Positions 9,978-30,990 of a stretch of 41,353 nucleotides of DNA are shown piece after piece. The DNA lies in the IMG/VR virus record IMGVR_UViG_3300032223_001030, positions 1 through 41,353 of that record. The stretch is one strand, 5' to 3'. The position numbers and the translations under genes are program-made. The number at the start of each line of letters is the position of its first letter. Positions within the stretch are counted from its first letter, which is position 1. This stretch comes from a virus. The notes under the pieces were generated by a model that was given only the letters and a program-made list of their open reading frames with translations, was not told where the DNA came from and did no database searches.

Positions 9978-10634
9978 ATGAAACTCATCACGGAATATAA
10001 CGAGAGCGGCGTTCATGCGCTTATCGAGTCTGCTGGTCCCGAGAAGAAGTATTTTCTCGGAGGCGTATTCATGCAGGCCGAGAAGCAGAATCGCAATAAT
10101 CGAATCTATCCTCGTGCCGTTCTGAAAGATGCCGTGAGCCGCTTCGTTGCCGAACAGGTTTCTACTGGTCGTGCGGTCGGCGAGTTGAATCATCCCGAGG
10201 GTCCGCAGATTAACCTAGATAAGGTTAGCCATCGCATCACGGAGCTCAAGTGGAACGGCGACGACGTATGTGGTAAGGCTTTGATTCTCAATACTCCGAT
10301 GGGTCTGATCGTCAAGGGTCTGCTCGACGGCGGCGTTAAGCTCGGCGTCTCCTCCCGCGGTATGGGATCCGTCGAATCTCGTGGTGGTAAGACGTACGTG
10401 AAGGAAGACTTCAGTCTGGCTACGGTCGACATCGTACAGGATCCGTCGGCTCCTTCGGCCTTCGTCGAGGGAATCATGGAGGGCGTAGAATTTTTTAAGG
10501 AAGGCAACGAGATCATCGCTCGCAAAGTCGAGAAGATCAAGAAGGTGATCTCCCGCACTTCCAAGAGTCAGTTGGCCGAAGCTCAGGAGCGTGAATTCAC
10601 GAAGTTCATGACCGAGATCGCCAACGGCTTATAA
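9978..10634 (+). CDS. gp21: Prohead core protease gp21
   Basis: The 218-residue serine protease that matures the prohead by cutting scaffold, core and capsid proteins after a hydrophobic-x-Glu motif. It carries the herpesvirus-assemblin-like triad pattern: His72 in GELNHPEG, Ser125 or Ser126 in KLGVSSRGMGSV, and an Asp in the VDIVQDPSAPSAF segment near 151-162. Length equals T4 gp21 (212). The ATG follows the preceding stop by two bases with no Shine-Dalgarno, so translation may be coupled. Gene order portal, core, protease, scaffold, capsid is the T4 head module. Confidence 0.96.
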   Translation: MKLITEYNESGVHALIESAGPEKKYFLGGVFMQAEKQNRNNRIYPRAVLKDAVSRFVAEQVSTGRAVGELNHPEGPQINLDKVSHRITELKWNGDDVCGKALILNTPMGLIVKGLLDGGVKLGVSSRGMGSVESRGGKTYVKEDFSLATVDIVQDPSAPSAFVEGIMEGVEFFKEGNEIIARKVEKIKKVISRTSKSQLAEAQEREFTKFMTEIANGL

Positions 10635-16783: not shown

Positions 16784-16811
16784 TGTACTTTTCAGAAACT
16801 CGTGTTATATT
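16784..16811 (+). promoter_or_regulatory. TGTAC-class promoter for gp55
   Basis: TGTACT (16784-16789), 16-base spacer ending TGT, and -10 box TATATT (16806-16811). The expected start, seven bases past the -10, is the A of the gp55 ATG at 16818, so the mRNA should be leaderless. Confidence 0.75.
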
Positions 16812-16817
16812 GTCCAC

Positions 16818-17459
16818 ATGAAAGATAGCATCACGGCAGAATCGACACCAAGAAAAATCAAACCGTCAGAGCGCCCTCACTACGTCAACAACGCCGAGTT
16901 CTCAAAGGCGATCGTCGACTACGTGATCCTGGCAAAAGCCGCAAAGGCCAAAGGCAAACCTCTCCCTCAGCTTTCTGAGTACATCGGGACGTGCCTGCTG
17001 AAGATCGCCGAGGGCCTCTCTCGTAAACCCAACTTCGTTCGATATACCTATCGCGAGGACATGGTGATGGACGGCGTCGAGAATTGCATCCGCGCCGTAC
17101 CCAACTTCAACGTGAACGTCGGCACTCGTACAGGACTGCCGAACGCCTTTGCTTACTTCACGCAGATCTGCTTCTTTGCATTCATTCGTCGCATTCAGAA
17201 GGAGAAGAAGTCACAGGACATCAAGCTCCTTTATATGGAATCGGCAGGCATCGAGAACTTTGCCACCTTCGGCGAGGGCGAGGCCGGTGACTCTCCTGCG
17301 GTCGGCGAGGGAATCGTGGAACGTGTGCGTCACAAGGTCGAGCAGATCCATAAGCGCGACGCGGCCGTCAAGGCGTTTGGCAAGACGATTAAGAAAGGCA
17401 AGAAAGCGGCCAAGAAGTCGACCACTTCGTCCCTCGAGCTATTCTCCCTCCTGTCCTAA
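16818..17459 (+). CDS. gp55: Late-transcription sigma factor gp55
   Basis: A 213-residue homologue of T4 gp55 (185), the divergent sigma factor that directs host RNA polymerase to TATAAATA late promoters together with gp33 and the sliding clamp gp45. Visible family features: YVNNAEFSKAIVDY at 22-35, LLKIAEGLSRKPNFVRYTY at 62-80, MVMDGVENCIRAVPNFN at 85-101 and NAFAYFTQICFFAFIRRIQKEKK around 112-134, which is the -10 recognition region. The C-terminus (SSLELFSLLS) resembles the gp55 C-terminal clamp-binding hydrophobic motif. The many late octamers in the window are its presumed targets. Promoter and ATG imply a leaderless mRNA. Confidence 0.93.
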   Translation: MKDSITAESTPRKIKPSERPHYVNNAEFSKAIVDYVILAKAAKAKGKPLPQLSEYIGTCLLKIAEGLSRKPNFVRYTYREDMVMDGVENCIRAVPNFNVNVGTRTGLPNAFAYFTQICFFAFIRRIQKEKKSQDIKLLYMESAGIENFATFGEGEAGDSPAVGEGIVERVRHKVEQIHKRDAAVKAFGKTIKKGKKAAKKSTTSSLELFSLLS

Positions 17460-17466
17460 CTACTAT

Positions 17467-18534
17467 ATGCTCATCGCGATAATCAACGACACTCACACCG
17501 GACAGCGCAATGCGTCCGATGTGTTCCTCGACTACACGGACAAGTTCTATCGCGACGTGTTCTTTCCATACTGCAAGCAGCACGGCATCAAGACCGTGAT
17601 TCACTGCGGCGACTACCTCGATCATCGCAAGTACGTCAACTTCAAAGCCCTCCATCGTACTCGTAAGGCGTTCCTCGAACCCCTCGCCGAGAACGGAATG
17701 AACATGATCATCATTCCCGGAAATCACGACGTGTATTTCAAGAACACGAACGAGCTCTGCGGCCTGCGCGAGGTCCTTGGATACTTCATCGAGAATGTCG
17801 AGATCGTGATGAAGCCGACCGTGAAGCAGATCGGCGGCCTCGATCTGGCATTCCTTCCGTGGATCGCGCCAGACAACTACGCGGAGTCGATCGACTTCAT
17901 CGCTAAGGCTCCCGCGCCGATCTTGATCTCCCATCTAGAACTGGCCGGATTCGAAATGATGAAGGGACAGCCGGCCTCCGATCATGGAATGGATGCCTCA
18001 CTATTCAAGAGATACGAGATGGTCCTATCTGGTCATTATCATACCAAGTCGACACGTGAGAATATTCATTACCTTGGCACTCAGTTCGAACAGACATGGG
18101 CGGACTGTGAAGATCCAAAGTTCTTTCACGTCCTCGATACGGACACTCGAATCCTTACGCAAGTAAAAAATACCTTTACTCTGTTTGAACGTGTGGTGTA
18201 TAATGATGAACGACAAGATCCAGACTCGATCGACGTGACAGGATTCAAAGGCAAATACGTCAAGGTCATTGTTGCCAAGAAAAGCAATCCAAGTAAGTTC
18301 GATCGATTCATTCAACGCATTCAGGATGCTGGACCGATCGAGCAGCCCAGGATCGTCGAGTCGTTTGATGAGTTCACATCCCATCGAGTCGAGGATCAGC
18401 AGATCAATCTCGAAGACACCGGTAAACTATTACATACATACATCGATGCCACTGAGACGTCGCTCGACAAGGAGCGCCTGAAGTCCATGATGCAGGAACT
18501 CTACGTCGAAGCTCAGTCGGCAGAAAACGCTTAA
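17467..18534 (+). CDS. gp47: Recombination nuclease subunit gp47 (Mre11-like)
   Basis: A 355-residue calcineurin-type phosphoesterase that with gp46 resects DNA ends for recombination-dependent replication. All metal-site motifs are present: NDTHTG at 7-12, GDYLDH near 49-54, GNHDVYF near 85-91, the HLE motif near 153 and GHYHTKS near 190. Length equals T4 gp47 (339). The frame extends further upstream into gp55 but MLIAIINDTHTG at 17467 gives the expected N-terminus, eight bases after the gp55 stop. It is followed by gp46 with a two-base gap. Confidence 0.96.
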   Translation: MLIAIINDTHTGQRNASDVFLDYTDKFYRDVFFPYCKQHGIKTVIHCGDYLDHRKYVNFKALHRTRKAFLEPLAENGMNMIIIPGNHDVYFKNTNELCGLREVLGYFIENVEIVMKPTVKQIGGLDLAFLPWIAPDNYAESIDFIAKAPAPILISHLELAGFEMMKGQPASDHGMDASLFKRYEMVLSGHYHTKSTRENIHYLGTQFEQTWADCEDPKFFHVLDTDTRILTQVKNTFTLFERVVYNDERQDPDSIDVTGFKGKYVKVIVAKKSNPSKFDRFIQRIQDAGPIEQPRIVESFDEFTSHRVEDQQINLEDTGKLLHTYIDATETSLDKERLKSMMQELYVEAQSAENA

Positions 18535-18536
18535 TC

Positions 18537-20249
18537 ATGTTAACCTTTCGTTCCGTCTCATTCAAGAACTTCTTATCGACCGGCGACGTGCCTATCACGA
18601 TTCGCCTGGATCAAAGTCCTACGACCCTGATCGTCGGTGCCAACGGCGCAGGCAAATCCACGATGCTTGATGCAATCTGCTTCGGCCTATTCGGCAAGCC
18701 CCATCGCGACATCAAGAATCCGCAGCTCATCAACTCCGTCAACGGAAAGAACTGCGAGGTCCAGATCGAGTTCACGATCGGCCAAGACAAGTATCGAGTC
18801 GTTCGTGGATACAAGCCGTCCGTGTTCGAGATCTGGAAGAACGGAGCGCTCCTAAATCAGGAATCCCACTCGCGCGACTATCAGGCCGTCCTCGAGACAA
18901 ACATCCTGAAGATGAACAAGAAGTCGTTCAATCAGATCGTTGTCCTCGGAGCAGGCAACTTCGTGCCATTCATGCAGATGCCGGTATGGGATCGTCGAGG
19001 CGTCATTGAAGAACTCCTCGACATCTCCGTGTTCTCGGACATGAACACATTGATCAAGGAGAAGTTGGCCAAGTCCCGTGAGGATCTCAAAGAGACGGAG
19101 AATCAACTGGCGATCTTCAAGGAAAAGGTGAGACTGCAGACGAAGCACCTGAATGATCTCAAGCAAATCGATGCAAACAACACGCAGTCGATTCGAGACG
19201 AGATCGCGACCATTGAGTCTCAGGTCTCGACCAAGCAAGACGAGGCGAATGAATATCAATCCACCCTCGATGCCAACACGAAGGTCGTTACGGCCGCGCA
19301 GAAGGCGGCACAGAAGAAACGTCAGGCTCTAATCGGATATCAGACGCAGATTCAGTCCAATCTTACGAGGATCCGTACGGAATCCGAGTTCTATCAAAAG
19401 AACGACGAGTGTCCGACATGTCAGCAGAAGATCGAGAGCGACATCAAGGAACGAAGGACTCATCAGTGCTCGACCAAGTCGGCCGAGTTCAACGACGGTC
19501 TGAGTAAATTGAATGAAGCACTGACCCAGGCAAATGTGGAACTGGATCAGGCCAATGCTCGAATAAACGAGATGATGGCCGTTCAGTCGTCCCTCTCGAC
19601 CGTCAACGCGACGATTCAGTCCCTTCACAATCAGATCGCGGCGCTGAATAAGAAACTCAAGGACGCATCGGCCACGTCGGACACCAAGCAAGCCGAGGAC
19701 GAGCTGCAGGTCAGTCAGCAGGAACACCTACGGCTCACTCAGACACGCTCGAATCAAATAGACGAACGTTCTTATCTGGACGTCATTCAAGAGATGCTGC
19801 GTGATACGGGCATCAAGGCGAAGGTCATCAAGCAGTACGTGCCGCTCATGAATAAGTTCATCAATCAGTACTTGTCCGTCCTTGACTTCTTCGTGTCGTT
19901 CATGCTGGACGATTCGTTCAACGAGACGATCCGTTCCCGTCATCGGGACGACTTCTCGTATGCCTCGTTCTCGGAGGGGGAAAAGATGCGCATCAATCTG
20001 GCGATCCTGTTCACGTGGCGCCAGATCGCCAAGCTCAAGAATCACAACGCGACTAACCTGCTGATCCTCGATGAGACATTTGACTCGTCTCTGGACGGCG
20101 AGGGCGTCGAGAATCTGCTTCGAATCCTCAACACGCTGACGGCCACCAACGTCTTCGTCATCACCCACAAGCCGGATGCGATGTCCGATAAGATGGCGGC
20201 CAAGCTGGAATTCGCTAAAACCGGCAACTTTTCGACCCTCAAAGCGTAA
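18537..20249 (+). CDS. gp46: Recombination nuclease subunit gp46 (Rad50-like)
   Basis: The 570-residue SMC-like ATPase partner of gp47. Walker A GANGAGKS is at 34-41, a long coiled coil runs from about 165 to 400 with a zinc-hook CPTC at 292-295 at its apex, the signature motif is SFSEGEKMRINLAILF near 477, and Walker B LLILDETFDSSLDGEG lies near 506-521. Length matches T4 gp46 (560). The coiled coil is short compared with cellular Rad50, as usual for phages. Translation is probably coupled to gp47. Confidence 0.97.
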   Translation: MLTFRSVSFKNFLSTGDVPITIRLDQSPTTLIVGANGAGKSTMLDAICFGLFGKPHRDIKNPQLINSVNGKNCEVQIEFTIGQDKYRVVRGYKPSVFEIWKNGALLNQESHSRDYQAVLETNILKMNKKSFNQIVVLGAGNFVPFMQMPVWDRRGVIEELLDISVFSDMNTLIKEKLAKSREDLKETENQLAIFKEKVRLQTKHLNDLKQIDANNTQSIRDEIATIESQVSTKQDEANEYQSTLDANTKVVTAAQKAAQKKRQALIGYQTQIQSNLTRIRTESEFYQKNDECPTCQQKIESDIKERRTHQCSTKSAEFNDGLSKLNEALTQANVELDQANARINEMMAVQSSLSTVNATIQSLHNQIAALNKKLKDASATSDTKQAEDELQVSQQEHLRLTQTRSNQIDERSYLDVIQEMLRDTGIKAKVIKQYVPLMNKFINQYLSVLDFFVSFMLDDSFNETIRSRHRDDFSYASFSEGEKMRINLAILFTWRQIAKLKNHNATNLLILDETFDSSLDGEGVENLLRILNTLTATNVFVITHKPDAMSDKMAAKLEFAKTGNFSTLKA

Positions 20250-20266: not shown

Positions 20267-20338
20267 TGCAAGTCGTTGGTATTCAACGTGAAAATTCTTT
20301 CACTTTTTTGTGTACATTTGACTGGCATGCGGTATACT
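20267..20338 (+). promoter_or_regulatory. TGTAC-class promoter with upstream dyad for the VWA gene
   Basis: TGTACA (20311-20316) and TATACT (20333-20338) are 16 bases apart. Upstream, 20267-20288 carries TGCAAGTCGTTG followed by the dyad CGTTG-GTATT-CAACG, and a second dyad GTGAAA-ATTC-TTTCAC (20288-20303). The same arrangement recurs at 22589-22659. The expected start (about 20345) coincides with the first usable ATG. Confidence 0.72.
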
Positions 20339-20344
20339 TATCTC

Positions 20345-22582
20345 ATGATCGAGCAAGTCAATATGAATCAGCAGGGGATGCTGGCCAAACTCTTGGCCAA
20401 GGAAAATCTCCGAATCCAACACGGCAACTACGCTACGGCGTTCTTTGACACCAAGTCGCGTGTCCTTGGCCTTCCAATCTGGAAGACGTCAGGCAAGAAC
20501 GTTTATGACTTGCTCGTCGGACACGAAGTCGGCCACGCCCTCTTCACTCCGATGTCTGGCATAGAAAAGTTCCGTCAGGAACTCCCCGAGGTGCCATTCG
20601 ATATCTGCAACATAGTCGAGGACATTCGCATCGAGCGCATGATCCAAGACACGTACCCGGGCCTCGCGACCGCGTTTCGTCAAGCATACGAGACGCTGGT
20701 CGCGGACAATTTCTTCGGCCTCAAAGGCAAGGACATCTCCAAGATGAATTTTGCCGATCGTCTCAATCTTCATGCCAAGGCTGGCAAGGCGGTCGACGTC
20801 AAGCTGACGGCCGACGAGCAGGCGATTTATGATCGCTGCATCAAAGCCCAGGACTTCGACGAGGTGATCGAGATCTGCAAGGACATCGCTCATCTGGTTG
20901 GCAAGCGTAAGGAAGACGAGGCTGGATCTCCGGCGGCTGGCAAGTCCGAGAGTGACAAGCAGGAGGATGCTCCTCAGGCCCCTTCAAACGAGGACTCCGG
21001 CGATGAGGCTGAGAACGAGGATCCAGGATCTTCCGAAGGATCCGGCAACGACTCCGAGCAGGACTCAGATGACGAATCTGACAATGATGGCGAGGCCGAT
21101 GGCGGCCAGCCGTCCGACGAGCAGGCTGAAGATTCTGATGAGCAAGCTCCGACGGCTGGATCTCAGGCCGGCAACACGACACTCAAGGACGAGCTCACCT
21201 CCGAGACGGCCAAGTCCTTTGAGCAGGCTCTCAAGTCGATCCAGCAGACGGATGAGTACGTCCACTTCCTCGCCCCTCGCAAGGAAGCGGTCCAGAGCGT
21301 CATCACTCCCTATCAAAAGCTCCTCGAGGCTCGTCAGTCGAAGCCTCGCTACGTGGGTTACATGACTCATCCGGCCACCAAGGCTCACTACGCGGAGACG
21401 AAGGCGTCTGCGAAGAAGTACGTGGCCGGCCTGACTCGCGAGTTCGAGATGCGCAAGGCGGCTCATCAATATTCTCGAGCGTCCGTCGCCAAGACTGGCA
21501 CGCTCAACATGGCCAAGCTCCATTCGTATCGCTACTCGGAGGACATCTTCAAGTCGATCACCAAGCTGGCCAACGCCAAGAATCACGGCATGATGATGTT
21601 CGTCGACTACTCGGCCTCGATGCAATATTCGATCGGCCACGTCCTGGAGCACACGGTCAACCTCGTCATGTTCTGCCGCAGCCTCAACATCCCGTTCGAA
21701 GTCTACGGCTTTACGAATCCCTCGGTCAACAAGCCGCTCGCTAAGATGGCCCATGACGAGATCAGTCTGTCATACCTGTCCCTGATTCAGACGTTCTCGA
21801 GCAAGATGAGCAAGGCCGAGTTTGATCTGGCCATCGAGCAGACCCTCGCGCAGGCTTTCTTCTACAAGGGCGGCGGCCGCTCGGTCAGCTACGAGCTCGG
21901 CGGCAGCGGCAGTTACTGTCCGGCGGCGTCGCCCCACGAAAGTCTGTCTGGCACGCCGCTTCAAGAATGCGTCGTGGCCGCTCACATCCTCGTCAACGAG
22001 TTTCGCAAGGCGAATTCGGTCCAGAAGATGAACGTGGTGTTCCTCACGGACGGCGACGGATCCATGCTTCATCGTCATCAGACTGAGGCCGGATCGAAAG
22101 CCGCTGGATCCAGCTACATGACTTCCAAGATGAAAGGCAACCTCGGCGGCACCGAAGTCACTCTGAACGAAGGCTTTTATTCGTACGAGAAACTGATCCA
22201 GAATCTTCGCAAGGCGACTGGATCGACCGTCGTTGGATTCTTCATTCCGAATTCTCCTCAGCAGGCGATTCGATATGCGGGACGCGCCATGGAATACACG
22301 CGCAAATCATTCCCGAGCATATCGACTTCGAAAGATGCCCACGCGACCTATCGCAAGGACAACTGTCTGATCATCAAGGGTGGATACGGCTTCGACGAGT
22401 ATTATGTGCTGGCCACCGGCAAGAATCTGGACATCGACACGGAAGACGAGTTCGATACGGACTTCGAGGTCATCGACATCAAGAAGTCTCAAGGCAAACT
22501 GGCCCGCGCCTTCACGGAATTCAACAACACGAAGCGCACTCAGCGCGTGATCCTCTCAAAATTCAGTCAGGTGATTGCCTGA
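20345..22582 (+). CDS. Large protein with HExxH motif and C-terminal VWA domain (CobT-like)
   Basis: A 745-residue protein. Near the N-terminus it has a zincin-type motif, GHEVGHALFTP at 59-69 (His60, Glu61, His64), followed by a helical domain; then a very acidic Glu/Asp/Ser-rich linker (about 190-280); then a conserved helical part and a C-terminal von Willebrand A domain with a MIDAS DYSAS at 421-425 and VVFLTDGDGS near 561. The order acidic linker plus VWA resembles CobT of aerobic cobaltochelatase and VWA partners of MoxR ATPases. The next gene encodes such an ATPase. The upstream in-frame extension is rejected because the promoter lies inside it; ATG 20363 is an alternative start. Its biological role in the phage is unknown. 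Confidence 0.82.
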   Translation: MIEQVNMNQQGMLAKLLAKENLRIQHGNYATAFFDTKSRVLGLPIWKTSGKNVYDLLVGHEVGHALFTPMSGIEKFRQELPEVPFDICNIVEDIRIERMIQDTYPGLATAFRQAYETLVADNFFGLKGKDISKMNFADRLNLHAKAGKAVDVKLTADEQAIYDRCIKAQDFDEVIEICKDIAHLVGKRKEDEAGSPAAGKSESDKQEDAPQAPSNEDSGDEAENEDPGSSEGSGNDSEQDSDDESDNDGEADGGQPSDEQAEDSDEQAPTAGSQAGNTTLKDELTSETAKSFEQALKSIQQTDEYVHFLAPRKEAVQSVITPYQKLLEARQSKPRYVGYMTHPATKAHYAETKASAKKYVAGLTREFEMRKAAHQYSRASVAKTGTLNMAKLHSYRYSEDIFKSITKLANAKNHGMMMFVDYSASMQYSIGHVLEHTVNLVMFCRSLNIPFEVYGFTNPSVNKPLAKMAHDEISLSYLSLIQTFSSKMSKAEFDLAIEQTLAQAFFYKGGGRSVSYELGGSGSYCPAASPHESLSGTPLQECVVAAHILVNEFRKANSVQKMNVVFLTDGDGSMLHRHQTEAGSKAAGSSYMTSKMKGNLGGTEVTLNEGFYSYEKLIQNLRKATGSTVVGFFIPNSPQQAIRYAGRAMEYTRKSFPSISTSKDAHATYRKDNCLIIKGGYGFDEYYVLATGKNLDIDTEDEFDTDFEVIDIKKSQGKLARAFTEFNNTKRTQRVILSKFSQVIA

Positions 22583-22588
22583 GGTATG

Positions 22589-22659
22589 TGCAAGTCGTTG
22601 ATACACAACGAGATACTCTTTCACTTTCCTATGTACATTTACAAAGAACGTGATATACT
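22589..22659 (+). promoter_or_regulatory. TGTAC-class promoter with upstream dyad for the AAA+ gene
   Basis: TGCAAGTCGTTG (22589-22600) begins a perfect dyad TCGTTG-ATACA-CAACGA (22595-22611), then CTTTCACTTT, TGTACA (22632-22637), 16 bases, TATACT (22654-22659). The block closely copies the one before the VWA gene with the same spacing, implying co-regulation of the two genes. Confidence 0.74.
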
Positions 22660-22680
22660 TATATCAGATTGGAATACATT

Positions 22681-23904
22681 ATGAACAACGCCATCATTAA
22701 ACGGACCATCGAAAAACTCCACGAACGCTCTCCTGGCCAGAACATCTGGCAGCGCGACGTCATCGCCGACACGGCCCGATCCCTCGGTCTCTCGTGGACG
22801 GAGATCAACGAAAACCTGCTCGCTTCGCACGTTCGGTGCGGCCGCGGTCATTACGACCTCGCACGAGTCCGCACGGTTACCTACGACGCCGCCGGCGCCA
22901 TCAAGCCCGTGGCCGTCGAATCGGCCGCCGAAGCTCCCTCCGAGCCCTCAGCGCAGTCGGTTCCGGCTCCAGCTGCGGTCTTCAAGCTCGCTCAGGCCGT
23001 CACCTCGACCATGAACGACGACGCTTACATCCCAGACGTGGATCCGACTTTCGTCCGCTGGGGCGAGTACGACACGGTCCTCAAGGCCATTCAGTCCGGC
23101 CTGTTCTATCCGATCTACATTTCCGGTCTGTCCGGCAACGGCAAGACCACGATGGTCGAGCAGGCATGTGCCAAGCTCAAGCGTGAGTACATTCGAGTCC
23201 AGATCTCGCCCGAGACGGACGAGGACGACCTGATCGGCGGCTTTCGACTGCTCAACGGCGAGACGGTCTTCTGCAAGGGGCCGGTCCTCAAGGCCATGGA
23301 ACGCGGGTGCATCCTGCTCATCGACGAGATCGATCGCGGCTCCAACAAGATCATGTGCCTACAGGGCATCCTCGAGGGCAAGCCGGTCCTCGTCAAGAAG
23401 ACCGGTCAGGTAGTCCAGCCGGCCGCCGGCTTCAACGTCATCGCGACGGCCAACACCAAGGGCCGCGGATCCGAGGACGGTCGATTCGCGGCCGCCACGA
23501 TCATCGACGAGGCGTTCCTCGAGCGCTTCGTAGCCACCATCGAGCAGCCCTATGCCGCTCAGGCCGTCGAACGCAAGATCGTGGTCAAGCACATGGAGAA
23601 GTTTGGCAAGCTCGATGAGGACTTCGCGGACAAGCTCGTGGCTTGGTCCACGGTCATTCGCAAGACCTTCGAGTCCGAAGCGATCGAGGAAGTCATCTCG
23701 ACTCGCCGCCTCTGTCACATCGCTCAGACCTTCGCGATCTTTGGCGACCGCGCCCGTTCGATCCAGCTATGCATCGCGCGATTCGATACGGACACTCGCA
23801 ACGCATTCCTCGACTTGTATTCCAAGCTCGACGCGTCGATCGTTCCTCCGGCTCCGGTCGCTGAAGTGGCTCCGGCTGCGACCACGAACGAAGCTCCGTT
23901 CTGA
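22681..23904 (+). CDS. MoxR/CobS-type AAA+ ATPase
   Basis: A 407-residue ATPase. An N-terminal domain of about 100 residues (IWQRDVIADTARSLGLSW, Ala/Pro-rich linker 75-105) precedes an AAA+ core: Walker A GLSGNGKTTMVEQA near 148-160, EDDLIGGFRLLNGETVF near 182, Walker B CILLIDEIDRGS near 210-221, and sensor FNVIATANTKGRG near 255-266 with an EAFLERF arginine region. Marine T4-like phages often carry a cobS annotated for cobalamin biosynthesis; here the partner VWA gene suggests a chelatase-like or remodelling complex instead. The ATG at 22681 has GGA seven bases upstream; a TTG at 22669 is an alternative. Confidence 0.88.
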   Translation: MNNAIIKRTIEKLHERSPGQNIWQRDVIADTARSLGLSWTEINENLLASHVRCGRGHYDLARVRTVTYDAAGAIKPVAVESAAEAPSEPSAQSVPAPAAVFKLAQAVTSTMNDDAYIPDVDPTFVRWGEYDTVLKAIQSGLFYPIYISGLSGNGKTTMVEQACAKLKREYIRVQISPETDEDDLIGGFRLLNGETVFCKGPVLKAMERGCILLIDEIDRGSNKIMCLQGILEGKPVLVKKTGQVVQPAAGFNVIATANTKGRGSEDGRFAAATIIDEAFLERFVATIEQPYAAQAVERKIVVKHMEKFGKLDEDFADKLVAWSTVIRKTFESEAIEEVISTRRLCHIAQTFAIFGDRARSIQLCIARFDTDTRNAFLDLYSKLDASIVPPAPVAEVAPAATTNEAPF

Positions 23905-23958: not shown

Positions 23959-24041
23959 ATCCAACAATCTCTTCGATATGGGCGACCAAGTATCGGAGCG
24001 AATCACAACAAAAATTGGTCGCATTGAAAGCAACACACAAC

Positions 24042-24308
24042 ATGAGCAAGACAGCCATCAAACAACTGACCAAGAACTATAAAGCCACCGGCACCCAGCG
24101 CGGCGCGATCCTCGAGACGCTCAGCGCAGGCACTCAGTTCTCGGTCTCCGATGCCCGCAAAGCTGGTATCGCTAACCCGACTGCCGTCATCGCCAAACTG
24201 CGCGAAGAAGGCTTCGAGATCTACTCGAACCCTTGGTCCCGCCGCAGCGAACGCAAAGTCGCCGCTGGTACGGTCAATCAGTACCGCCTCGTTGCCTACG
24301 TTGCCTAA
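24042..24308 (+). CDS. Small helix-turn-helix-like protein
   Basis: An 88-residue basic protein. The segment QRGAILETLSAGTQFSVSDA, then RKAGIANPTAVIAKLREEGFEI, has the shape of a winged helix: helix, short turn, helix (recognition, with PTAVIAKLREEG) and a beta wing (IYSNPW, VNQYRLVAY). Many T4-like phages encode such small HTH proteins of unknown target. The start at 24042 is the first ATG; an upstream in-frame GTG is less likely. It has a dedicated promoter and leader and a strong hairpin behind it, so it forms its own transcription unit. Candidate regulator; target unknown. Confidence 0.75.
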   Translation: MSKTAIKQLTKNYKATGTQRGAILETLSAGTQFSVSDARKAGIANPTAVIAKLREEGFEIYSNPWSRRSERKVAAGTVNQYRLVAYVA

Positions 24309-24730: not shown

Positions 24731-25402
24731 ATGCTTAAACTATCCAAATTCACGGTCGACGTTCTGAAGAACTTCGCCTCCATCAATCCCAATCTCGTGA
24801 TCAAGGAGGGCTCGACCTTCTCGACGATCGCTGAGGCAAAAAACATCATGGCGTCCGTCACGGTCCCCGAGAACTTCTCTCGCACCTTTGGCGTGTACGA
24901 CCTGAACGAGTTCATCGCCGCCTTGAGCCTTCTGGAAGATCCGACGATCGACCTGCTGGAAGACTCGGCGATCCTCTCCGATGACTCCACGACGGTCAAG
25001 TACCGCTTCGCGAATCCGACCGTCCTGACGACTCCGTCCAAGGAGATCAAGATGCCCTCGATCGACGTGACCGTCAAGCTCACCAACGACCTGCTCGGCA
25101 AGGTCCGTAAAGCGGCAGGTGTCTTGGGCCACTCGATCGTCGCGCTGAAGGGAACGTCGTCTGGATCCCTGAGCCTCGCGGTCCTCGATCCGAAGGACTC
25201 GTCGGCCAACACCTACACGGTCGCTCTGACCGAGAAGCACACGCTCGACAAGGACTTCTCCTTTGAGTTTCTAATTGACAACCTCAAGGTCCTCTCTGGT
25301 GACTACACGGTCGCCGTCTCTTCGAAGCTGATCTCCGAATGGACTCATGCGGACTTCAAGGTAAATTACTTCATCGCTCTGGAGAAGACCTCAACCATCT
25401 GA
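24731..25402 (+). CDS. gp45: Sliding clamp gp45
   Basis: A 223-residue homologue of T4 gp45 (228), the trimeric processivity clamp that also tethers gp55/gp33 RNA polymerase for late transcription. The N-terminal KLSKFTVDVLKNFASINPNL and IKEGS-TFSTIAEAKNIMA, then FGVYDLNEFIAALSLLEDP near 53-71, are diagnostic. The C-terminal part (SKLISEWTHADFKVNYFIALEKTS) ends as in other gp45 proteins. It is followed by a small GroES-like gene and then clamp loader genes 44 and 62. A six-base gap separates it from the preceding stop; no Shine-Dalgarno is seen. Confidence 0.95.
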   Translation: MLKLSKFTVDVLKNFASINPNLVIKEGSTFSTIAEAKNIMASVTVPENFSRTFGVYDLNEFIAALSLLEDPTIDLLEDSAILSDDSTTVKYRFANPTVLTTPSKEIKMPSIDVTVKLTNDLLGKVRKAAGVLGHSIVALKGTSSGSLSLAVLDPKDSSANTYTVALTEKHTLDKDFSFEFLIDNLKVLSGDYTVAVSSKLISEWTHADFKVNYFIALEKTSTI

Positions 25403-27526: not shown

Positions 27527-29737
27527 ATGAGCGACGAGGCTATCAAACAACCGATTAAGGATAAAGACGTCGCCGTGACGTCTTATCAGATCTACTGCGA
27601 CATGGATGGCGTCCTCGTCGACTTCGACACGGCCATCAAGAAGGTTACCGGAGGCAAACTCTGGGACGAAGCCGTTCGCGACCTCGGCCTCGAAGAACTC
27701 TGGCGTCTAATCAATCTTGGCGGATCCGCTTGGTGGGCCGAACTCAACTGGACCAAAGACGGTCAGAAACTCTGGGACTTTCTTCGCGATAAGAATCCAA
27801 TCATTCTCACGGCCGGTGCGATCTCGAGGACTGGCGATCGAGCCCTTAATGGCAAGAAGGCATGGTGTCTGAAGCACCTCGGTCCTAAACCTGAGGTCAT
27901 CGTGGCCGATCATGGCACGGATAAGAAGTTCTGGTCCGAGCCTGGACACATTCTGATTGATGATCTGGAGGAGAACATTCGTGCTTGGCGTTCTCGTGGA
28001 GGCATAGGCATTCATCACAAGGACGCTGCCCAGACGATCTCTGAGCTCAAGGAGCATATCCTTACGTTTGCTCCCAATGATGAGCTGGAAGAGGACTGGA
28101 GATCACTGGCCGCGGCTGGATTGCTCGGTCTATCTGCCGTCAAGATGTATGAGAGTCTGAATGCCTCTTCCGTCTCCGCTTCTGGCAAGCTTTTTAGAAA
28201 AGTTGATAAAGGCACTCTGAAGGATCCGTTTCAGGAAGGCAAGTTCTTCATGACTCCGGATCTTCGACTCATCTCCGTGCAGGATCATGAATCCGCTGCG
28301 GCCGAGATCCTTGGTGGTGAGTACGATTCGGACGATTCATGGATGGATCGTTGGAGCGCTCAGTTGGCCGAGGCTGGATGGGTGCGAGTGATCTGTGACG
28401 GTGAAAGCCTGGTGTTTTCATGGAAGGCCAGTCCGTCTCAGATTCGTGAGCTCAAGAACTTGGCTATCGAGAATCAACTTATACTGATCGACGATGTCAA
28501 CTCGAAAGATCGCGTGCTGTGGCAACCCGGAATGGATGAAGGCACCGATCAGAAGAACTCCAAGAAGCTTCAGATCTACTGCGACATGGATGGTGTTTTG
28601 ATCGACTTCGACACACCTCTAAAGAAGCTTACCGGAGGCCTTCTGTGGAATGACGCGGTCAAGGAATATGGTCTCGAGGAATTCTGGCGTCGAATCAATG
28701 CTGGCGGTGTGGAGTGGTGGAGCGACCTTTCCTGGGCACAGGACGGCCATCAGCTCTGGAACTTCATCAAGGATAAGAATCCCATCATTCTTACGGCCGG
28801 TGCGACTTCTATGACTGGAGATCGTGCTGAGAGAGGAAAGAAGATCTGGTGCGCACGAGAATTAGGTAATTCCTTTGAAGTCATTGTGGCCGATCATGGA
28901 AAGGATAAGAAGTATTGGGCCGCGCCGAATCACATTCTCATCGATGATCTGGAAGAAAACATTCGCGCCTGGAGATCTCGAGGAGGCATCGGCATCCTTC
29001 ATCGGAATACCACTCAGACGATCGCGGAGCTCAAGGACCACTTGCTATCATGGTCCGATGATCCCGATGAGCTGGAAGAGGACTGGAGATCAATGGCCGC
29101 GGCTGGATTGATCGGTGCGACTTCTCTGACCGGAGCTCATGGCGCATCGGCCAAGCATCATTCCGTGCCTCATAACAAGGCACACATCACTCATACGATT
29201 TCCAATAAGATGACACCTCTGACGGCCACCACTCCAGAACAGCTCCTGATGGGCTACGAGAACTCCAAGGACAATCCTAACGGCGGATATGACAAAGCTT
29301 CCGGAAAGTGGTTTCCCGTGCGAAGTCTGGAAGGCGGATCCGACACGATCGCCTACGGTCACAAGCTTCTGCCCGGAGAGGACTTCTCCAAGGGAATCAC
29401 GGACGAAGAGGCCGTCGCTCTCCTTCGTCAGGACATCGCCAAGCGCGAGGTGGCCATTCGAAAGGCCCTTCCTGAATACGACTCGCTTCCTCAGTACGTC
29501 AAGAACGGCATCGTCTCCGCATGGTATCGCGGCGACCTTGGTCCCAAGGCTACTCCCAAGACGATGGCGCTCATGAAGGCCGGTGACTGGTCTCAAGCCG
29601 CGGCTGAGTATCTCAATAGCCGAGACTTCAAGACCGGATTTGCTGGCGTCAAGAAACGCATGCAAGACAACGCGGATGCTTTTACGAAGTTCGCTTCAGA
29701 AAAAGTTTCGACGGGTATGCAGGTCGCGTATAAATAA
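27527..29737 (+). CDS. Fusion of two HAD 5'-nucleotidase-like domains with a lysozyme domain
   Basis: A 736-residue protein of unusual make-up. Residues 20-212 and 347-535 are two copies of one HAD-type domain: motif I CDMDGVLVDFD (24-34) and CDMDGVLIDFD (352-362), motif II ILTAG (93-97, 421-425), and ILIDDLEENIRAWRSRGG (142-159, 470-487) as the acidic motif IV. This is the 5'(3')-deoxyribonucleotidase pattern. Each copy ends in EEDWRS, then AAAGL. Residues 223-333 form a separate mixed domain. Residues about 575-725 resemble T4-type lysozyme (GH24): LEGGSDTIAYGHKLLPGEDF at 601-620 parallels TIGIGHLL, then ITDEEAVALLRQDI. Expected role is peptidoglycan cleavage plus a nucleotidase-derived part that may be catalytic or structural. 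Not a known standard lysin. Confidence 0.85.
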   Translation: MSDEAIKQPIKDKDVAVTSYQIYCDMDGVLVDFDTAIKKVTGGKLWDEAVRDLGLEELWRLINLGGSAWWAELNWTKDGQKLWDFLRDKNPIILTAGAISRTGDRALNGKKAWCLKHLGPKPEVIVADHGTDKKFWSEPGHILIDDLEENIRAWRSRGGIGIHHKDAAQTISELKEHILTFAPNDELEEDWRSLAAAGLLGLSAVKMYESLNASSVSASGKLFRKVDKGTLKDPFQEGKFFMTPDLRLISVQDHESAAAEILGGEYDSDDSWMDRWSAQLAEAGWVRVICDGESLVFSWKASPSQIRELKNLAIENQLILIDDVNSKDRVLWQPGMDEGTDQKNSKKLQIYCDMDGVLIDFDTPLKKLTGGLLWNDAVKEYGLEEFWRRINAGGVEWWSDLSWAQDGHQLWNFIKDKNPIILTAGATSMTGDRAERGKKIWCARELGNSFEVIVADHGKDKKYWAAPNHILIDDLEENIRAWRSRGGIGILHRNTTQTIAELKDHLLSWSDDPDELEEDWRSMAAAGLIGATSLTGAHGASAKHHSVPHNKAHITHTISNKMTPLTATTPEQLLMGYENSKDNPNGGYDKASGKWFPVRSLEGGSDTIAYGHKLLPGEDFSKGITDEEAVALLRQDIAKREVAIRKALPEYDSLPQYVKNGIVSAWYRGDLGPKATPKTMALMKAGDWSQAAAEYLNSRDFKTGFAGVKKRMQDNADAFTKFASEKVSTGMQVAYK
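29729..29736 (+). promoter_or_regulatory. Late octamer overlapping the fusion gene stop
   Basis: Perfect TATAAATA formed by the last codons. It would start transcription near 29742 and give the Hsp20 gene an 89-base leader that carries a hairpin. The overlap with codons makes chance somewhat more likely than at the other sites. Confidence 0.6.
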
Positions 29738-30322: not shown

Positions 30323-30335
30323 TTCATGTTATATT
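30307..30335 (+). promoter_or_regulatory. TGTAC-class promoter, now facing an antisense gene
   Basis: TGTACT (30307-30312), 17-base spacer ending TG-T, TATATT (30330-30335). It points to the plus strand but is followed by a minus-strand endonuclease whose stop codon overlaps the -10 box. It may be the original promoter of the polymerase gene, separated from it by the insertion. Confidence 0.65.
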
Positions 30336-30990
30336 ATGACTTGAATTTGCATTTATCGAAATGCCATGTTTTCATTCCTGTACTACCTCCAATTTTTCCA
30401 CAATGAGGACAAATAATTTTAATTTGGCTAGGATGAGAACCATTGGCTGCTCTTTTTCGATTCGACTGTGATTGTATTTTTCCTCCTAAAAATGGATGTG
30501 TACCATTAGCTATTTGTTTTTGAGCATTTTTTATTCGTACTTCTTTCATCATTAGAGAATTTTGAAAAGTATCTTTTAGAAAAATATGTGTGCCATTTGA
30601 AATGTTTTTTTCACTTATTCTTTTTGCAATTTCTCCTCCTAGAAAATGATGCGTACCATTAAGAACTCGCTTTAAAGCTAATTCGGATTGTTGTTTTCCT
30701 CCTAGAAAATGATGCGTACCATTAGCTACGAGTCGTAATTGTGATATTCTAGCTAAATTTGATTTTTGTTCAGGTGTTATAGTTATTCGATTAGCGATTA
30801 GTAAACAAGCATGCCAATCGCCTTGAGCATAATGAATATCATAATGTTCCTGAATGGTAACAGCCTTTAAGTTTTCCGGTGAATTATTCGAATGATCTCC
30901 ATCAATGTGATGAATTTCGAATGTTCTTCCAGATTCATCAATGGGAATAGGACCGAAATGGTCCTCATAGATTTTCCTATAAGTAGTCAT
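30334..30990 (-). CDS. HNH homing endonuclease with NGTHxFLGG repeats
   Basis: A 218-residue minus-strand protein, the only gene on that strand. The N-terminus has the HNH nuclease core EIHHIDGDHSNNSPENLKAV (25-44) and later HYDIHY. Five repeats of NGTH-type (90, 111, 132, 162, 183; mostly spaced 21) form a DNA-reading array, and the C-terminus ends in a zinc-finger-like CPHC (194-197) with His210 and Cys214. This is a typical phage mobile endonuclease that cuts intron- or gene-free alleles of a neighbour to spread itself. Its DNA is much more AT-rich than flanking genes, a sign of recent arrival. It has a late promoter and a hairpin leader on its own strand, no visible ribosome site. Confidence 0.93.
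   Translation of the reverse strand: MTTYRKIYEDHFGPIPIDESGRTFEIHHIDGDHSNNSPENLKAVTIQEHYDIHYAQGDWHACLLIANRITITPEQKSNLARISQLRLVANGTHHFLGGKQQSELALKRVLNGTHHFLGGEIAKRISEKNISNGTHIFLKDTFQNSLMMKEVRIKNAQKQIANGTHPFLGGKIQSQSNRKRAANGSHPSQIKIICPHCGKIGGSTGMKTWHFDKCKFKS
30634..30724. repeat. Near-exact DNA repeats inside the endonuclease gene
   Basis: A 28-base unit is identical at 30634-30661 and 30697-30724, 63 bases apart (21 codons), encoding the NGTHHFLGG modules. The identity at DNA level points to recent duplication of the DNA-binding module. Confidence 0.85.

Follow-up and report, generated by a model that had tools for sequence, protein, structure and literature searches.

What is the function of a phage gene pair in which an ATPase commonly read as a cobalamin gene accompanies a protein with a peptidase motif? 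The question is raised by IMG/VR virus record IMGVR_UViG_3300032223_001030, a fragment of a T4-like phage analyzed over its full 41,353 nucleotides (hereafter, the window), in which the two genes sit between gp46 and gp45. The first encodes a protein with an N-terminal HEVGH motif, an acidic linker and a C-terminal VWA domain (the HExxH/VWA protein), and the second a CobS-like, MoxR-type AAA+ ATPase. An original prediction, made from the sequence alone, described a two-gene system of unknown role. The pair itself had already been published under another functional reading: Liu et al. (2021; PMC8651126) named the viral pair cobST, called the “peptidase” label a mistake, and proposed that it hijacks host CobN for cobalt insertion, thereby raising cobalamin supply for nucleotide synthesis, a view repeated in 2026 (PMC13390420). 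The genes of that viral cluster are identical to phrog_459 and phrog_249 discussed here; only the interpretation differs. We put the probability slightly above one half (about 0.52) that the pair is a MoxR/VWA remodelling machine with a zincin domain rather than a cobalt chelatase. The novelty lies in this reinterpretation, and in a zinc-protease domain that would be common to unrelated mobile elements.

The predicted anatomy of the two proteins, 745 residues with HEVGH, linker and VWA followed by the ATPase, was borne out by the open reading frames and by whole-family matches, to phrog_459 (“peptidase”, E = 1.8e-170) for the first protein and phrog_249 (“porphyrin biosynthesis”, E = 9.8e-107) for the second. 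The ATPase carries the Pfam domains AAA_5 and CbbQ_C, and Walker A was present in all 166 relatives. Its sequence matched, among solved structures, midasin first and CobS next, and also NorQ. Single-sequence searches of Pfam, PDB and PADLOC with the HExxH/VWA protein gave no useful match. The best solved fold for its VWA domain, which bears a DYSAS metal-ion-dependent adhesion site (MIDAS) at residues 421-425, was the NorD VWA domain within the NorQD complex. Since NorD is the best match of the VWA domain and the ATPase resembles midasin, CobS and NorQ in sequence, the pair would be a MoxR ring that remodels a MIDAS-presented target. Indeed, it has the arrangement expected of MoxR/VWA systems, namely a MoxR-type AAA+ protein with Walker A and B motifs adjoining a MIDAS-bearing VWA protein. 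In the linker, aspartate and glutamate reach 40% within a 60-residue stretch.

The zincin-like motif noted in the original prediction proved to be real. HExxH and a second motif, NxxEDxR[IV][ED], were both intact in all 96 T4-type relatives (viral and genome contigs) covering the site, so the loss of HExxH among homologues, which would have spoken against the prediction, was not seen in this group. An alignment of 57 N-domains, 17-98% identical to that of the window, left just eight columns invariant: H60, E61, H64, N89, E92, D93, R95 and I96. This corresponds to the zincin pattern of a conserved HExxH and an acidic third-ligand motif on the following helix. The pattern N[VI][LIV]ED[VAI]RIE served to retrieve the genome-contig members, which biases the ED part in that set; HExxH was absent from every search pattern used. 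Both motifs or close variants also occurred in members found without a pattern, including Rhizobium phages, a Klebsiella phage-plasmid, IncC plasmids, the haloarchaeal virus HCTV-16, Bacteroides phage BS162P1, Gordonia phage GMA3 and Roseobacter phage CRP-810. HExxH was found in most phage-plasmids examined; Vibrio phage JSF23 keeps it together with a partial second motif, and in two chromosomal members one inserted residue makes it HExxxH. The structural model of the N-domain (predicted local distance difference test score, pLDDT, 91.5; predicted template modelling score, pTM, 0.87) had as best solved fold matches the minigluzincins jannalysin, abylysin and selecase (4jix, 4jiu, 4qhf) and the antirestriction protein ArdC, all of them weak (E 0.3-1, top probability 0.95); similarity to IrrE/PprI was weak as well. 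Minigluzincins and ArdC share the predicted fold and the HExxH helix but are stand-alone proteins, with neither a VWA nor an AAA+ partner. The HExxH/VWA protein very probably binds zinc and is fairly likely to act as a protease.

The two genes travel together. A CobS gene lay within 1.5 kb of the HExxH/VWA gene in 87 of the 91 loci with room for one, and in 86 cases it came immediately downstream in the same orientation. One locus (L177) has it on the opposite strand, about 1.5 kb away, and the three HExxH/VWA loci with no visible CobS gene (L073, L075, L186) are all contig fragments. Among cyanophages, record counts were equal for both genes (365 Synechococcus, 61 Cyanophage and 24 Prochlorococcus records). 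Carriers of the pair family comprise phages, phage-plasmids, conjugative plasmids and chromosomal elements. In Pseudoalteromonas phage XG4 (L005, 6935-9177), the VWA and HExxH parts are two adjacent separate genes, still beside CobS and the clamp gene.

The surroundings of the pair are rich in replication and recombination genes. The conserved order in T4-type phages is gp47, gp46, HExxH/VWA, CobS, gp45, gp44, often with a MazG-like gene before gp45. In Rhizobium phages, Shinella and Acinetobacter plasmids, Klebsiella phage-plasmids and Pseudomonas phage nickie, dnaE is the neighbor of the pair, and several of these elements have a sigma gene in between. JSF23 has it in one gene run with a helicase and DNA polymerase I, and the order in Pelotomaculum is RecT, AAA_5, HExxH/VWA and a PD-(D/E)XK nuclease. 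The IncC plasmid pAR060302 carries a row of CobS, a hypothetical gene, ssb, bet, exo, DUF3150 and HExxH/VWA, and IncC-like gene sets were found on chromosomes of Methylobacter, Thiocystis, Pseudomonas, Desulfacinum and others. In IncC plasmids and most related chromosomal clusters, DUF3150 (PF11348; L252, 6016-7293) is encoded between the two genes of the pair, and is probably a third component in this branch.

Both genes are preceded by similar elements (20269-20340 and 22591-22660), composed of a CGTTG...CAACG dyad, TTTCACTTT, TGTACATTT and TATACTTAT, which recur in relatives; positions 22591-22640 closely repeat 20269-20319, dyad included. These may constitute a two-copy regulatory element for the pair. 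The TGTAC...TAT pattern occurred 19 times in the window (3.5 expected), and the stricter TGTAC-N16-20-TATDWT six times (0.19 expected), before gp55 and the DNA polymerase gene among others. Promoter-like sites of the TGTAC-N16-20-TAT type were located at 16784, 20311, 22632, 23930, 30307, 31091, 34335 and 40409. The T4-late-type ATAAATA was also overrepresented (12 against 2.6 expected), mostly before structural genes. In 21 relatives, a TGTAC-type box precedes the first gene 13 times and the second gene 15 times; the late TATAAATA/CATAAATA box was found upstream of neither. This distribution suggests that the pair is expressed early or in the middle phase, along with replication genes. Our literature search found no expression data for the cyanophage cobS and peptidase genes.

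Taken together, the two genes may encode a two-component machine: driven by ATP, the CobS-like ring would remodel a target protein, or pull on it, with the VWA domain docking or presenting that target by its MIDAS. The gluzincin-like domain at the N-terminus of the VWA protein would cut the exposed target, or in some lineages only hold it, while the disordered acidic linker would let the domains move. The target would probably be one of the element's own replication, recombination or late-transcription proteins, or a host factor acting there; for replication and recombination in particular we see an even chance. The protease-chaperone complex of the original prediction is thus the best reading of the pair, with proteolysis as a conjectural part. 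Its further suggestion that a host factor is inactivated found no specific support, and the neighborhood and promoters point to replication and recombination instead. Among known systems, NorQ-NorD and CbbQ-CbbO likewise combine a MoxR-type ring with a VWA partner, but a scan of one NorD-type protein showed no zincin domain, and the target of NorD is a respiratory enzyme. The DUF2201_N/DUF2201 proteins (PF13203, PF09967), with which the original prediction had proposed a comparison, share the HExxH plus VWA architecture and nothing detectable in the N-domain (hhalign P <3%, from only two DUF2201 sequences), and PF13203 had no match in the window; on this small comparison they appear to be an architectural parallel.

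CobT, by contrast, is a distant homologue. In profile comparisons of N-domains, the IncC-like group matched CobT with P = 96% over 176 columns, and it matched the T4-type group with P = 99.6%; the direct comparison of the T4-type N-domain with CobT was not significant (P = 3%), and the link to the CobT superfamily runs through the IncC-like group. PF06213 matched 14 of the 57 N-domains (best 7e-14), CobT_C matched the RHEph10 protein at 4.9e-35, and an N-domain profile search of PDB sequences gave CobT at a suggestive E = 0.27. True CobT, too, has an acidic disordered linker, and cobaltochelatase CobS-CobT (TIGR01650, TIGR01651, PF06213, PF11775) resembles the phage pair in setting an AAA+ ATPase beside a protein with an N-domain, such a linker and a C-terminal VWA domain. 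However, HExxH was not present in the four true CobT proteins adjoining true CobS that we examined; in Sinorhizobium meliloti CobT, the segment matching the zinc site reads GDSMALRKACHD...AVEQARVEA. The HExxH/VWA protein is thus distantly related to CobT but has a zinc site missing from true CobT, so that “CobT” and “peptidase” are both partly right. By inference, the site was lost on the cellular side, in the chelatase subunit.

Does this kinship make the pair a cobalt chelatase, as published? Apart from the CobT homology, the solved CobS structures, next-best matches of the ATPase after midasin, favor that view. Nevertheless, the family models speak clearly against it: the ATPase scored 75.6 bits against the TIGR01650 (CobS equivalog) cut-off of 558.55, and its partner 11 bits against 759 for TIGR01651 (CobT equivalog). 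A maximum-likelihood tree of 89 rows placed T4-type CobS in a group of its own (99/95), borne on a long branch, and true CobS in a separate one (100/97), the nearest to true CobS being the phage-plasmid group and the long-branched JSF23. Cobaltochelatase depends on CobN, whereas the phage pair, set among replication genes, is not accompanied by a CobN gene in its own genome. CobN (PF02514) was not found in 16 mobile-element records (11 named phages or plasmids and five viral contigs) and was detected in the pSymB control; no CobN-family protein was found in 13 of 23 cellular genomes carrying a wider-family HExxH/VWA gene, several of which are incomplete assemblies. One of the 23 holds both a true CobT (826.7 bits) and an HExxH/VWA protein. 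Hosts such as E. coli, which harbors IncC and SSU5-like elements, are not known to make corrin rings. The CobN absences concern the wider family, not the host of the window phage, and a cyanobacterial control does carry a CobN-family protein; because cyanobacteria have one, the cyanophage case rests on the equivalog cut-offs, the tree position and the shared anatomy. Overall, we are highly confident that the pair is not a cobalt chelatase, and recruitment of host CobN appears quite improbable. The doubt that the original prediction had cast on the CobS annotation was well placed, and the outcome it had named as contrary evidence, both genes falling within true cobaltochelatase with a CobN partner, did not arise. 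Its claim that the partner's motif points away from cobalamin holds in that the pair is no chelatase; the CobT label itself is not baseless.

Other readings keep the protease or the ATPase but change the task. Destruction of a host defense or regulatory protein early in infection would suit the early- or middle-type promoters, the presence of the pair in phages, phage-plasmids and conjugative plasmids alike, and the weak fold similarity to ArdC and IrrE/PprI. We nonetheless regard it as unlikely, given that both genes occupy a fixed place in the same 450 cyanophage records, unlike the usual patchy spread of anti-defense genes, and that neither a specific host target nor a convincing PADLOC family match emerged. 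A machine that only remodels, its zincin-like domain binding zinc or the target but not cutting, in the manner of NorQ-NorD, RavA-ViaA or midasin, seems about equally doubtful. It would account for the NorD match of the VWA domain and for the pairing being kept without catalytic residues in true CobT and in two mobile-element lineages; yet every intact member has kept the catalytic glutamate E61, a constancy that metal binding by itself would not require. A virion maturation protease, suggested by the phage-encoded peptidase motif, is hardly credible and was set aside: the window already has a head maturation protease (9978-10634; phrog_207, 2e-71), no late promoter precedes the pair in the 21 relatives, and the occurrence of the pair in conjugative plasmids contradicts this role. 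Several observations also count against the protease-remodelling machine that we prefer. The top Foldseek matches of the N-domain model, mostly zincins, are statistically weak (E 0.3-1), and the true CobS/CobT pair is a genuine relative. HExxH is degenerate in an A. baumannii phage-plasmid (QEVAK; L246, 3499-5421) and in Pseudomonas phage nickie (SEISK; L272, 4983-7067), both of which retain the pair, so catalysis would be dispensable in some lineages. HCTV-16, GMA3 and CRP-810 show no clear replication neighbors, and early and middle phage genes cluster with replication genes anyway, so the neighborhood alone cannot fix the target.

Beyond the T4-type phages, we tentatively propose, at somewhat less than even odds, a so far unrecognized class in which a MoxR AAA+ ring and a zinc-protease/VWA protein process a replication or recombination protein in tailed phages of bacteria and archaea, phage-plasmids, conjugative plasmids and chromosomal elements, with CobST as a cellular offshoot that would have lost the protease site. 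The cyanophage metabolic gene “cobS”, one of six named cyanophage core genes (PMC3037559), is probably misnamed. Marine virus surveys routinely list it among the vitamin-B12 auxiliary metabolic genes, an ecological reading that falls if the pair is a protease-remodelling machine. In that case, a function central to many tailed phages, and to the IncC plasmids that carry multidrug resistance, becomes directly testable through one catalytic residue, one MIDAS and one ATPase.

Table 1. Features of the gene pair and its flanks, in window coordinates
Feature	Coordinates	Strand	Remarks
gp46 (SbcC-like) recombination nuclease subunit, conserved upstream neighbor	18537..20249	+	
Promoter-like TGTAC-N17-TATACT before HExxH/VWA gene	20311..20338	+	
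HExxH/VWA protein, 745 residues, ATG at 20345	20345..22582	+	phrog_459 “peptidase”; published as viral CobT
HEVGH (residues 60-64), predicted zinc-binding/catalytic motif	20522..20536	+	H60, E61, H64 invariant in 57 N-domains
NIVEDIRIE (residues 89-97), presumed third zinc ligand (E92 or D93) and support residues	20609..20635	+	N89, E92, D93, R95, I96 invariant
Disordered acidic linker, residues ~194-282	20924..21190	+	pLDDT <50 at 194-278; D/E-rich
VWA domain, residues ~412-634, MIDAS D421-S423-S425, T537, D569	21578..22246	+	Invariant columns
Promoter-like TGTAC-N17-TATACT before ATPase gene	22632..22659	+	
CobS-like/MoxR-type AAA+ ATPase, 407 residues, ATG at 22681	22681..23904	+	phrog_249; AAA_5 and CbbQ_C
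Walker A of ATPase, G149-T156	23125..23148	+	Invariant columns
Walker B of ATPase, D215-E216-I217-D218	23323..23334	+	Same relatives' alignment as Walker A
gp45 sliding clamp, conserved downstream neighbor	24731..25402	+	

The window further encodes a tail sheath, portal, head protease, scaffold and major head protein, a helicase, gp55, gp47 and a DNA polymerase. A small open reading frame between CobS and the MazG-like gene (24015-24308, phrog_4973) is kept in many relatives. The gp47 frame (17149-18534) is listed with a TTG start about 100 codons upstream of the family match, which begins at residue 106, and overlaps the gp55 frame (16818-17459); the true start is probably near 17464. Outside the window, an Agrobacterium plasmid protein (L257, 5167-6639) has an apparent TIR-like N-terminus fused to a CobT-type VWA domain, with a toll/interleukin-1-receptor-domain gene in the neighborhood. 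Downstream of the pair in the window, positions 27527-29737 encode a 736-residue protein with two repeated 5'(3')-deoxyribonucleotidase/HAD-like domains (residues ~20-180 and ~345-515) and, at the C-terminus, a phage lysozyme domain. Nucleotide metabolism and lysis are oddly combined in this one protein, and no phage record covers 80% of it. An HNH/intron-type homing endonuclease (phrog_12324) is encoded on the minus strand at 30334-30990, in an A+T-richer island.

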